From assembly GCF_030730865.1 (NCBI RefSeq), contig NZ_JAVALZ010000002.1:372001-436000 (forward strand): 64,000 nucleotides of DNA, written 5' to 3'. A program made the position numbers and the translations under genes. The first letter of the stretch is position 1, and each line of letters begins with the position of its first letter. Shown here piece after piece: positions 33,669 through 38,545 of this stretch. Under the pieces are notes generated by a model. The model did not search any database and was not told the origin of the DNA. It worked only from the letters and a program-made list of their open reading frames with translations. Origin of the DNA: Uliginosibacterium sp. 31-16. GTDB lineage: Bacteria > Pseudomonadota > Gammaproteobacteria > Burkholderiales > Rhodocyclaceae.

Positions 33669-33972
33669 ATCGGTTACGCGCGGTGCATGAAGGAAGCCAC
33701 CGTCTCTTAGGGTTAGAGATGTAAGTTCAAAATAACATCAATGAGTTATCGCCGCAAGCTAACCTATTACCTGAGTATCAGCAATACAACACTGCGCAAA
33801 CCCGCGCCAAGCCGGACGGACGGGCATTTCACTACAAGCCCGCCAAGCATGCATCACAAATCCCGGATAAAACTTCGGCGGGTTGCTTCACGCAACACCG
33901 CCGACACCATTTCCCTTGCAGATCAATTTCTTAGCATGCAAGGACGTTTGTCACGCATGCATAAAATGCTTA
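33669..33972. other. Gap between asd and fimV
   Basis: About 304 bp without a gene. The half near asd holds its terminator (33866-33903, minus). The half near fimV is relatively AT-rich and must carry the fimV promoter; TTGATG (33739-33744, read on minus) is a candidate -35, but the call is weak. Confidence 0.4.
33866..33903 (-). terminator. Probable terminator of asd
   Basis: On the minus strand CGGCGG-TG-TTGC, a 5-base loop, then GCAA-C-CCGCCG form a stem with one small internal bulge, followed by AAGTTTTAT. It lies about 70 bp after the asd stop. The T-run is short, so efficiency is uncertain. Confidence 0.5.
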
Positions 33973-35097
33973 TCAAGCCTCAAGCAGGATACGCAGCATA
34001 CGCCGCAGCGGCTCGGCTGCGCCCCACAGCAACTGGTCGCCAACGGTAAAGGCGGCGAGGTATTCGCCGCCCATCGCCATCTTGTGCAGGCGACCAACGG
34101 GCACATGCAAATGGCCTGTCACGGCATTCGGCGCCAACTCGCGCTCGCTACGCTCACGCTCATTCGGGATTACCCGCACCCAGTCATTGGCGCCTGCAAG
34201 AATCTCGTAAATCTCATCGAGCGGCACATCCTGACGCAGCTTGATGGTCAGCGCCTGACTGTGGCAGCGCATCGCACCGATACGCACACACAGGCCATCG
34301 ATGGGCACCGAGCCCGCCGTACGGAAAGCCGGCTTGCCGAGAATCTTGTTGCACTCGGCGCCGCCCTTCCACTCTTCCTTGCTCTGGCCGTGCTCATACG
34401 GCACGTCGATCCAGGGAATCAGGCTGCCAGCCAGCGGCACGCCACGGAAGTTCTGCACAGGCATATCGCTCGAACGCATGGTTTCGGCGACCTTCCGATC
34501 GATTTCAAGAATCGCGGAAGCCGGATCAGCCAGCAGATCGGCCACGGACGCGTGAATCTTGCCCATCTGCGCGATCAGTTCGCGCATGTTCTGTGCCCCC
34601 GCACCGGACGCAGCCTGATAGGTCATCGAGGTCGCCCACTCGATCATGTCGTTCTGGAACAAACCACCCAAGCCCATCAGCATCAGGCTAACGGTACAGT
34701 TGCCACCGATGTAGTTCTTGACGCCCTTGGCGAGGCCGTCCTGGATCACGTTCTTGTTGACCGGATCGAGGATGATGATCGCGTCGCCCTTCATGCGCAG
34801 GCTTGAAGCCGCGTCAATCCAGTAACCATTCCAGCCGGCAGCGCGCAGTTGCGGGAAGACTTCGTTGGTATAGTCGCCGCCCTGACAGGTGATGATCACG
34901 TCCATCTTCGCCAGATCGGCGATGGACTTGGCATCCTTGAGCGGTGCACCACCACTCTCGGCGGGACCAGCACCACCCGCATTCGAGGTGGTGAAAAACA
35001 CCGGCTCGATCAGTGCGAAATCGTTTTCCTCGCGCATGCGTTGCATGAGCACCGAGCCGACCATGCCGCGCCAGCCGACAATACCAACTTTCTTCAT
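33973..35097 (-). CDS. asd: Aspartate-semialdehyde dehydrogenase
   Basis: A 374-residue NADP enzyme reducing aspartyl phosphate, at the branch to lysine/diaminopimelate, methionine and threonine. [18 protein letters not shown] carries the Rossmann motif, the catalytic cysteine is in [12 protein letters not shown], and [12 protein letters not shown] and the substrate Arg/His region ([16 protein letters not shown]) are present. AAAGG 8 bases upstream is the ribosome site. Its 5' leader contains a Thr-rich ORF and alternative hairpins (see 35121-35296). Confidence 0.98.
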
Positions 35098-35120
35098 CGT
35101 GATTACCTTTTGCCTGAACT

Positions 35121-35184
35121 GCCTCCGCTCACTTTAGCCTGTCTCCGCCACCGCGGAGACATCAAGCGGCGTGACAGGGCTAAA
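35121..35184 (-). promoter_or_regulatory. Mutually exclusive hairpins in the asd leader
   Basis: In RNA order on the minus strand: segment 1 GTCTCCGC (35160-35153) pairs perfectly with segment 2 GCGGAGAC (35148-35141, 4-base loop) or, with one G-U, with segment 3 GCGGAGGC (35128-35121). A second alternative pair is TTTAGCCCTGTC (35184-35173), which includes the leader-ORF stop codon, with GACAGGCTAAA (35144-35134). A ribosome at the leader stop would block that arm; a ribosome stalled on the threonine codons would not. No U-run follows, so the switch may act on translation or Rho rather than as an intrinsic terminator. Confidence 0.5.
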
Positions 35185-35296
35185 CCGTGGTGGTTTTTTT
35201 GGTCGTAGTGGTGGTCGTGACGGCAACGGACACGCGAGCGGAAGCCTCTGCAACGCAGAATGCTTCAAGCCCGAATGTATTTTGTGTCCGTTGCAT
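35180..35296 (-). CDS. Threonine-rich leader peptide of asd (candidate attenuator)
   Basis: A 38-codon ORF between leuB and asd, starting at ATG 35296, 13 bp after the leuB stop, with a GGAA-type ribosome site. It ends VTTTTTTKKTTTV: nine threonine codons (ACG, ACC, ACC, ACT, ACG, ACC, then ACC, ACC, ACG) and two lysine codons just before TAG. Threonine and lysine are end products of the pathway that asd feeds. The codons vary synonymously, so this is not a simple DNA repeat. Layout (leader ORF, stop inside a pairing arm, alternative hairpins, then asd) is that of ribosome-mediated attenuation like thrL. Its translation is not proven. Confidence 0.6.
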   Translation of the reverse strand: MQRTQNTFGLEAFCVAEASARVSVAVTTTTTTKKTTTV

Positions 35297-35309
35297 CACG
35301 TTTCCGTTC

Positions 35310-36371
35310 TTACAGGGCTGCGATCACCGCGTCGCCCATTTCGCGCGTACCGACGCGCTTGGTGCCTTCTTCCCAGATGTCGCCGGTGCGCAGGCCAGCG
35401 GCCAGCACCTTCTTCACAGCAGCTTCGATGCGGACAGCAGCCGCTTCGTTATTGCCACTGTAACGCAGCATCATGGCCGCGGACAAGATCGTTGCCAGCG
35501 GATTGGCCACGCCCTTGCCGGCGATGTCCGGTGCAGAACCGTGACACGGCTCGTACATACCCTTGTTGTTCTGATCCAGCGAGGCAGACGGCAGCATGCC
35601 GATCGAACCGGTCAGCATCGAGGCTTCGTCGGACAGAATGTCGCCAAAAATATTGCCGGTAACCACCACGTCGAACTGTTTCGGTGCGCGCACCAGCTGC
35701 ATGGCCGCATTGTCGACCAGCATGTGGGAGAGCTCCACATCCGGGTACTCGGACGAGATCTCGATCATCACATCGCGCCACAGCTGGGTGGTTTCCAGCA
35801 CGTTCATCTTGTCGACCGAGCACAGCTTCTTGTTGCGCTTCTGAGCAGATTTGAACGCGACATGGCCAATGCGGCGGATTTCGTCTTCGTTGTAGATCAT
35901 GGTGTTGCGGCCGACGCGCTTGCCATCTTCCACGCTAATACCACGCGGCTCGCCGAAGTAGATGTCACCGGTCAGTTCGCGCACGATCAGGATATCCAGG
36001 CCAGACACCACTTCAGGCTTCAGCGAGGAAGCGTTGGCCAGTTCGGGATACAGCACGGCCGGACGCAGGTTGGCGAACAGGTTCAGATCCTTGCGGATGC
36101 CCAGCAAGCCACGCTCGGGGCGCTGCGGACGCGGCAACACGTCCCACTTCGGGCCGCCCACGGCGCCGAGCAGCACGGCGTCAGCCGCGCGTGCCAGCTT
36201 CTGGGTGGCTTCCGGATAGGGCGAACCGGTGGAATCCACAGCGCAGCCGCCCAGCTCAGCGTATTCCATTTCCATCTTCAGGCCGTCGCTCTTTAGCGCA
36301 TCCAGCACGCGCACCGCTTCGGCAATGATTTCGACACCAATGCCGTCACCCGGCAGAACACAGATTTTCAT
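35310..36371 (-). CDS. leuB: 3-isopropylmalate dehydrogenase
   Basis: A 353-residue NAD-dependent decarboxylating dehydrogenase of leucine synthesis. [19 protein letters not shown], the arginine-rich substrate helix ([24 protein letters not shown]), [11 protein letters not shown], the catalytic Tyr/Lys/Asp sites and [14 protein letters not shown] are all present. It is third in leuC-leuD-leuB, separated from leuD by a REP-like palindrome, and followed by the candidate asd leader. Confidence 0.98.
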
Positions 36372-36397
36372 GATTGATCCAATTCTCTTTGTTTGGC

Positions 36398-36464
36398 GTC
36401 ATTCCGGCGAAGGCCGGAATCCAGAGCGTTGCGGCGGCTGGATCCCGGCCTTCGCCGGGATGAC
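36398..36464. repeat. REP-like inverted repeat inside the leu operon
   Basis: GTCATTCCGGCGAAGGCCGG (first arm 36398-36424) faces a 27-bp inverted copy at 36438-36464, with 2 mismatches across 27 bp and a 13-bp spacer. Each arm is itself palindromic (CCGGCGAAGGCCGG). This sequence type is a widespread intergenic REP/BIME-like element of proteobacteria. Lying between leuD and leuB, it would fold in the mRNA. Confidence 0.8.
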
Positions 36465-36475
36465 GGCTTGAAAAA

Positions 36476-37117
36476 TTAAGCGCCGAACAGCCAAGGTTGC
36501 GCGGCTTTGTGCTTCTCTTCAAAGGCCTTGATCTCGCCTGCGTGCTGCAGGGTCAGGCCGATGTCGTCGAGGCCATTGAGCAGGCAGTGCTTGCGGTGCT
36601 CGGTGATCTCGAACTTGAAGGAGAAGCCGCCCGGCGTGGTCACGGTCTGCGATTCCAGATCCACATCCAGCTTGTAGCCTTCAGTCGCTTCGCATTCCTT
36701 GAACAGGCGGTCGACGATTTCAGCGGAAGCCACGATCGGCAGGATCGCGTTCTTGTAGCTGTTGCTGAAGAAGATGTCGGCGAAAGACGGGGCGATCATC
36801 ACGCGGAAACCGTAATCCTCGATGGCCCAGGGCGCATGTTCGCGCGAGGAGCCGCAGCCGAAGTTGTCACGCGCCAGCAGCACTTGCGCGCCCTGATAGC
36901 GGGCCTGGTTCAGCGCGAATTCCGGACGCTTCGGGCGGTTCGTGCAGTCCATGCCCGGCTCGCCGAAATCGGCGTAGCGCCATTCGTCGAACAGGTAGGG
37001 GCCGAAGCCACTGCGCTTAATGGACTTCAGAAACTGCTTCGGGATGATCGCGTCGGTATCGACGTTAGCGCGATCGATCGGGCACACGAGGCCATTGAGA
37101 CGGGTAAAAGCTTTCAT
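36476..37117 (-). CDS. leuD: 3-isopropylmalate dehydratase small subunit
   Basis: A 213-residue swivel-domain subunit of isopropylmalate isomerase. [32 protein letters not shown] and [12 protein letters not shown]-type ([13 protein letters not shown]) motifs are conserved. It pairs with LeuC, whose stop lies 19 bp upstream; no small entericidin-type gene lies between them. Confidence 0.97.
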
Positions 37118-37135: not shown

Positions 37136-38545
37136 TCAGTTGCGTGAATCTCGGATATCGACGAAGTGACCGGCGATCGCGGCAGCAGCGGCCATGGCCG
37201 GGCTCACCAGGTGGGTACGGCCACCGGGGCCTTGACGGCCTTCGAAGTTGCGGTTGGAGGTCGAAGCGCAACGCTCGCCCGGGCTCAGACGGTCAGCGTT
37301 CATCGCCAGACACATCGAGCAACCCGGCTCACGCCATTCGAAACCGGCTTCGATGAAGATCTTGTCCAGCCCTTCGGCTTCAGCCTGGCGCTTGACGATG
37401 CCGGAGCCCGGCACCACCAGCGCCAGCTTCACATTGCCCGCGACCTTCTTGCCCTTGGCCACGGCAGCGGCAGCGCGCATGTCTTCGATGCGGCTGTTGG
37501 TGCAGGAGCCGATGAACACCTTGTCGATCTGGATGTCGGTGATCGGCATGTCGGCTTGCAGGCCCATGTACTGCAGGGCGCGCTCGATGCCGGCACGCTT
37601 CACCGGATCGGCTTCGTTGGCCGGGTTCGGCACATTGCCGCCCACTGCCAGCACCTGCTCGGGCGAAGTGCCCCAGGTCACTTGCGGCTCGATGTCGGCA
37701 GCATTCATCTCGACCACGGCGTCGAACTTCGCACCGTCTTCGGTGTGCAGGGTCTTCCAGACTTCGACGGCCTTGTTCCACTGCTCACCCTTGGGCGCAT
37801 GCTCGCGGCCTTCGAGGTAATTGATGGTGGTGTCATCCACGCCAATGATGCCGGCGCGCGCACCGGCTTCGATGGCGAGGTTGCACACGGTCATGCGGCC
37901 TTCCATGGACAGGCCACGGATCGCCGAACCGGCGAACTCGATGCAGTAGCCCGTGCCGCCGGCGGTGCCGATCTTGCCGATGATGGCGAGCGCGATGTCC
38001 TTGGCGGTCACGCCAGCGCCAAGCGCGCCTTCGACCTTGACCAGCATGGACTTGCTCTTTTTCTGCACCAGGGTTTGCGTCGCCAGCACGTGCTCGACTT
38101 CCGAGGTGCCGATGCCGTGAGCCAGCGCGCCAAACGCGCCGTGGGTCGCGGTGTGGCTGTCGCCGCACACCACCGTCATGCCCGGCAGGGTCGCGCCGTT
38201 TTCCGGGGCGATCACGTGGATGATGCCTTGGTTCTTGTGCTTGAACGGGAAGTAGATCAGCGAACCGAATTCCTTGATGTTCGCGTCCAGCGTATCCACC
38301 TGGGTCTTGGAGATCGGGTCTTCGATGTCGCGATCCCAGTGATTGGTCGGCGTGTTGTGATCCGGCACTGCCACGATGGAGGTGTTACGCCAGGCCTTGC
38401 GGCCGGCCAGACGCAGGCCCTCGAAGGCTTGCGGGCTGGTCACTTCGTGCATCAGGTGACGGTCGATATAGAGAAGACAGGTACCGTCTTCTTCCTGACG
38501 GACAACGTGGGAATCCCACAGCTTGTCGTAGAGAGTCTTGGCCAT
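37136..38545 (-). CDS. leuC: 3-isopropylmalate dehydratase large subunit
   Basis: A 469-residue aconitase-family subunit holding a 4Fe-4S cluster. Cluster cysteines occur in [16 protein letters not shown] and [10 protein letters not shown], with [16 protein letters not shown] and the C-terminal [10 protein letters not shown] also present. It is the first gene of leuCDB. Its 163-bp upstream region, shared with a divergent HTH regulator, contains hairpins (CCGGGC/GCCCGG and GCGCTGA/TCAGCGC) but no leucine-codon leader. Confidence 0.98.

Follow-up and report, generated by a model that had tools for sequence, protein, structure and literature searches.

We suggest that asd, the gene for aspartate-semialdehyde dehydrogenase, is preceded in Uliginosibacterium sp. 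31-16 by a ribosome-mediated leader-peptide attenuator, a reading to which we give a probability of about three in four. The DNA analysed (the window) is a stretch of 64,000 nucleotides, positions 372001-436000 of contig C2, from a genome of 3.9 Mb, on whose minus strand leuC, leuD, leuB, a 212-nt gap, asd and fimV follow one another. The gap holds a short ORF ending in threonine and lysine codons, and behind it lie RNA segments with alternative pairing partners. The features are listed here in the direction of transcription, in window positions.

37136-38545, minus strand: leuC, before leuD
36476-37117, minus strand: leuD, before leuB
35310-36371, minus strand: leuB, neighbour upstream of asd; profile matches (Pfam, NCBIfam)
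35180-35296, minus strand: leader ORF, 38 codons and a TAG stop; ATG at 35296 (alternative GTG at 35299), stop at 35182-35180; in-frame counterparts in 8/8 same-genus genomes
35186-35218, minus strand: putative regulatory codons ACG ACC ACC ACT ACG ACC AAA AAA ACC ACC ACG (9 Thr, 2 Lys)
35182-35196, minus strand: P1, a candidate helix at the leader end, AAACC (35196-35192) with GGUUU (35186-35182), longer in some other lineages
35173-35184, minus strand: S0, contains the leader stop and pairs with B' (35143-35133)
35153-35161, minus strand: A, UGUCUCCGC, pairs with B or C
35133-35148, minus strand: B/B', GCGGAGACA (35148-35140, pairs with A) overlapping GACAGGCUAAA (35143-35133, pairs with S0)
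35120-35128, minus strand: C, GCGGAGGCA, pairs with A, no U-run after it
35106-35110, minus strand: AAAGG, Shine-Dalgarno-like sequence of asd, picked by eye
33973-35097, minus strand: asd, the presumed target; TIGR01745 at 608.6 bits (cut-off 402.9), and Pfam

The leader ORF starts 10-13 nt past the end of leuB, would encode the peptide MQRTQNTFGLEAFCVAEASARVSVAVTTTTTTKKTTTV and stops 85 nt ahead of asd. Its C-terminal end, just before the stop, is VTTTTTTKKTTTV: nine Thr and two Lys codons fall within the last 12, a single Val codon separates the final Thr codon from the stop, and the Thr run mixes ACG, ACC and ACT. The original prediction had described this ORF and its varied synonymous codons, and its coordinates and counts are correct. 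When the 212-nt gap was shuffled with dinucleotides preserved, only 1 of 3000 shuffles gave an ORF with at least 9 Thr, Lys or Ile codons (T+K+I) in its last 16, against 11 observed, and zero antisense ORFs reached this threshold in 296 asd-upstream regions. A pattern of five ACN triplets has 36 overlapping matches in the 3.9 Mb and the reversed pattern 231; such runs are not rare genome-wide, so that conservation, and not the run alone, bears the weight. The RNA of 35090-35310 folds more stably than its own shuffles (z -5.25, 0/200). The Asd protein has its closest named relative in Uliginosibacterium aquaticum (97% identity, one scan of named records).

Thr codons absent or out of frame in close relatives would have spoken against the prediction; they are present and in frame in all 8 Uliginosibacterium genomes examined, with the stop at the same distance, 84-87 nt ahead of the asd ATG. 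One genome of this set has asd split across two contigs, and there the upstream half (L033) was kept and L034 dropped. Over the last 13 leader codons the differences between the 8 genomes rise from the first to the third codon position (0.209, 0.341 and 0.495). In addition, the leader peptide of L036 (JAVHYF010000005.1, titled as a Moraxellaceae bacterium MAG) is identical to that of the genus member L032, so the title of this record looks wrong.

The leader extends to a sister genus, g13, represented by two MAGs (Rhodocyclales bacterium RYN_554 and RYN_555), in which it ends in TKTKTVTG and TKTTKTVTG. No leuB match was found at these g13 loci; upstream at one of them (L038) are a 102-aa protein and ORFs that, from their translations, we take to be aroC-like and M48-type peptidase-like. 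As the leader is kept before asd without leuB as a neighbour, the element travels with asd. A covariance model built from the 8 genus leader sequences, with g13 left out of the building, matched among 297 genomes of the family only the 8 genus genomes and both g13 genomes (E of 5.6e-6 and 1.3e-5), at a single place per genome and each time directly before asd. By this search, run with strict filters at which some weak matches are lost, the leader occurs in 2/68 genera of the window's own family. Those loci of the family without the leader ORF that were measured (among L008-L030) have leuB and asd 19-99 nt apart.

For the wider distribution we considered ORFs ending 35-170 nt before asd and counted T+K+I in their final 16 codons at 296 of 305 asd-upstream loci, the 8 pattern loci and L034 being left out. 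The scores fall into two separate sets, 105 loci at 9-15 and 138 at 0-6, with none at 7-8 and 53 loci without a candidate ORF. The 105 leader loci comprise 93 distinct sequences and are a non-random sample from searches aimed at relatives; they cover a part of the order's families, with places taken from part of 394 matching genomes. Stop and asd start lie 78-94 nt apart in them. The named genera with a leader among the loci scored are Uliginosibacterium, Burkholderia, Paraburkholderia, Caballeronia, Trinickia and Parvibium, and further carriers are f31 genera including g158, g222, g225 and g237 as well as 3/3 f14 genomes; g158 is presumably Cupriavidus-like and g237 Pandoraea-like, both by guess. 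Genus g225 includes genomes of 1.1-1.2 Mb alongside larger ones, and at its locus L297 the upstream region is AT-rich, yet the leader is kept, ending LTRKTIKT. A Burkholderia-type covariance model (R1, 31 sequences chosen from 87) matched 5/399 genomes of the order under strict filters, once each and immediately before asd. It matched neither the window genome nor the sampled f14 genomes, and its failure to find the window genome marks it as narrow. The leader is not restricted to the leuCDB-asd-fimV block in which the prediction placed it: it is common in sampled Burkholderiaceae and stands at g13 loci without leuB.

The codon mix differs between lineages. The last 16 codons hold on average 8.9 Thr and 2.2 Lys, with Ile below 0.3, in Uliginosibacterium; 4.7 Thr, 2.8 Lys and 4.2 Ile in Burkholderia-type leaders; and 4.0-7.0 Thr, 2.0-3.2 Lys and 0.5-5.0 Ile in the remaining groups. 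Thr and Lys are thus present in every group mean, whereas Ile depends on lineage and nearly equals Thr in most relatives. All three amino acids are made from the product of Asd. The idea of a threonine attenuator of asd would therefore have to be widened: a Thr-rich leader is conserved with asd, but it is not purely Thr, and on our best reading the putative sensor would respond to the charging of tRNA-Thr together with that of Lys and, in most lineages, Ile.

Burkholderia-type loci have a leuB-asd gap of 294-478 nt. In 20/22 of those inspected, including L055, L063, L057, L281, L231 and L286, a promoter-like block (GTGTAGACT, GTGTATATT or GTGTACACT) stops 6-8 nt short of the leader ATG, so that the leader mRNA would be leaderless. 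Transcripts of this kind have been described for B. cenocepacia (PMC4603805) and C. metallidurans (PMC7563307), in papers whose main texts do not name asd. The block was not seen upstream of the inspected Uliginosibacterium leaders.

The elements lie in the order P1 at the leader end, S0 containing or following the stop, then A, B and C. In the window the pairing of A (35161-35153) with B (35148-35140) is perfect, and that with C (35128-35120) includes one G-U; both pairings of the prediction, A with either of two downstream partners and a second pair containing the leader stop, could be reproduced. P1 and the leaders of relatives had not been part of the prediction. The A:C helix is contiguous, 6-13 bp long, and ranks first or second among the long-range helices of 24 representatives; against dinucleotide shuffles it reaches p≤0.05 in 20/24 (Fisher 3e-8, 10 lineage representatives). 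For S0 and its partner downstream this level is reached in 13/24 only (Fisher 5e-5), and in 0/3 f14 loci. When own arms were set against foreign arms in 15 partly related representatives, A:C and S0:B each scored above all 5000 permutations, S0:C gave p=0.002 and A:B p=0.004. P1 gave p=0.0006 in 13 representatives, with the interval chosen truncating the g237 arm. Taken singly, P1 is better than shuffled intervals in 5/13 representatives and A:C in 11/13; in Uliginosibacterium P1 is not above shuffles. In L297 the A:C arms, UAUUCUAAG:CUUAGAAUA, are wholly different in sequence (shuffle p=0.040), and the helix scores 20.0 with its own arm against a maximum of 11.0 with foreign C arms.

Alignment-based covariation of the helices, which the prediction had proposed as a check, is weak. 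In an alignment of 31 Burkholderia-type rows 95.7% of cells are paired in A:C, 85.7% in S0:B and 94.2% in P1. The 3 two-sided cells of A:C there come from L297, one column off its true helix, and since 3-4 two-sided pairs also arise in slid controls we give these cells no weight. For S0:B there are 3 two-sided pairs against up to 4 in slid controls, and P1 covariation in these rows equals that of its own shuffles. In Uliginosibacterium the share of paired cells is 100% for A:C, where all changes are one-sided, 98.6% for A:B and 85.2% for S0:B, the last no better than shuffled columns.

We infer that the leader regulates asd, that it is translated, that it responds to amino acids, and in which direction it switches. 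When charged tRNAs are scarce, the leader ribosome would slow at the Thr (and Lys) codons and leave S0 free; S0 would pair with B (or C), A would be kept off C, and asd would be on. With charged tRNAs the ribosome would proceed to the stop and cover S0; A would then bind C (or B), which would lower asd expression. A ribosome footprint reaches about 12 nt past its codon (PMC4833913), so a ribosome on the stop would mask S0 and leave A for B or C. Classical attenuators switch by this logic; here the helices S0:B and A:C would cross each other.

Folding modelled at equilibrium shows no switch common to all loci, and the dependence of S0 pairing on ribosome position is its sole point of agreement with the attenuation model. 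With S0 free in five modelled Uliginosibacterium loci, S0:B forms in L003, and mainly S0:C beside A:B in L001, L005, L031 and L032; once a ribosome occupies the stop, the prevailing helix is A:B in four of the five and A:C in L032 (0.99; 0.67 with longer RNA). For L001 in the latter state the minimum-energy fold has A:C and the ensemble A:B, which indicates near-degenerate states. In the stalled state L055, L057 and L280 form S0:B on short RNA, A:C competing in longer RNA, and L297, L281, L063 and L265 barely switch at all in this modelling.

As to the output, no U-run follows the hairpins, as had been noted for the window and as holds in the 105 leader loci, where the final part of the gap has T-runs of 1-4 at the longest. 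The 40 nt past the leader stop are C-rich (mean 17.9 C against 11.0 G, 105 loci). From a stretch that is C-rich and free of U-runs our first guess, an inference, would be Rho-dependent termination in this region, and our second translational control. Reinitiation at asd after the leader is disfavoured, as a spacing of 78-94 nt is far above the reinitiation limit of about 12 nt (PMC4833913).

That second option, in which the leader ribosome would open or close RNA near the asd ribosome-binding site without terminating transcription directly, is a substantial possibility that falls short of an even chance. It agrees with the lack of a U-run after C, and has a proposed precedent in E. coli toiL-topAI, where the ribosome-binding site is opened by a uORF and repression results in termination by Rho (PMC12121999). 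RNAalifold joins a GCCC after S0 to GGGU of the asd Shine-Dalgarno sequence in the 31 Burkholderia-type rows, with U-A in 4 of them; this helix, however, is just 4 bp long and has a C-A mismatch in 7/31 rows. In Uliginosibacterium the Shine-Dalgarno region is 0.41-0.91 unpaired across the modelled states with no clear on/off contrast, and simple sequestration was rejected there. Considerably less probable is an intrinsic terminator with a poor U-tract, formed by A:C (or A:B) itself: the A:C stem is GC-rich in most representatives, but the short T-runs speak against it, and a scan of 33800-36500 found no promoter and two terminator-like sites, both on the strand opposite to asd. That the product of the ORF is a small protein rich in Thr and Lys with a function of its own, expressed together with asd, is improbable, in spite of its conserved position and frame, because conservation lies mainly at stop-proximal codons, neither of two leader peptides has an NCBIfam match, and the N-terminal part is without amino-acid selection (ratios of 0.70 in 359 pairs and 0.78 in pairs of equal length, against 0.83 and 0.75 in the other frames). 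Such a lack is expected if regulatory codons alone matter, and is not proof of translation. The notion that the gap merely holds structure from the end of leuB with an incidental ORF is the least credible, since the ORF does begin close behind leuB in the window genome but stays with asd at loci without leuB and, in the far longer gap of Burkholderia-type loci, follows a separate promoter-like block.

The attenuator we favour has its nearest counterpart in thrL, a short ORF before aspartate-family biosynthesis genes with Thr codons clustered near its stop and alternative downstream helices. It shares with thrL (RF00506, Thr_leader) the Thr-run ORF, candidate alternative helices and a presumed aspartate-family target, and differs in that the target is asd and not thrABC, that Lys and mostly also Ile codons are mixed in, that no U-run follows, and that it is betaproteobacterial and lies, in the window genome, inside the leuCDB-asd gene row. 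No Rfam 15 family matched the window, any of 13 loci, or 451 nt searched at E up to 10; this applies to RF00506 and to known RNA elements of the aspartate pathway such as the lysine riboswitch and the streptococcal asd motif. The asd leader also resembles toiL-topAI (PMC12121999), tna and, by suggestion, the mycobacterial cys leaders (PMC1262725), in that no intrinsic terminator is evident behind the leader ORF and Rho is proposed to act; those leaders sense antibiotics, tryptophan and cysteine (proposed), whereas this one would sense aspartate-family amino acids. The LEU element of actinobacterial leuA (PMC1262725) likewise combines a leader of regulatory codons with a possible pseudoknot and an open mode of action; codons, target and phylum differ. 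According to a comparative study, Rfam's amino-acid attenuator motifs of the time may be of gammaproteobacterial origin, with very few horizontal transfers (PMC3766115).

No asd leader was found in the literature searched, which was covered in part. Judged from sequence, the asd leader would be a variant of leader-peptide attenuation not previously described in the sources searched: sensor and placement fit, in that an upstream ORF rich in codons for the pathway's products near its stop is present, while the intrinsic terminator with a U-run before the structural gene, a general feature of attenuators, was not found in the scan or the 105 loci. It may be that this is a widespread class gating the branch-point enzyme Asd, in which one leader reads Thr, Lys and mostly Ile, the helices cross, possibly as a pseudoknot, and the output is non-intrinsic, the Burkholderia-type leader coming from a leaderless mRNA and the Uliginosibacterium leader acting within the operon to uncouple asd from leuCDB; this fuller picture is tentative, and the odds are against its holding in every part. 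If true, many Burkholderiaceae, and Uliginosibacterium, would have an attenuator ahead of a branch-point gene, one that joins the codons of several end products in a single sensor and lacks an intrinsic terminator.

Elsewhere in the window genome, no second Thr leader was found upstream of hom; six ACN triplets in a row also occur at positions 292-311 of contig C1, close to its start. In genus f31 g172 (6 loci) and in g98 (3 loci) the leader was not found. At L176, L182 and L205, which are without the leader, a small lipoprotein-like ORF (AGCNTV..GKD..), perhaps entericidin-like, ends 91-118 nt before asd.
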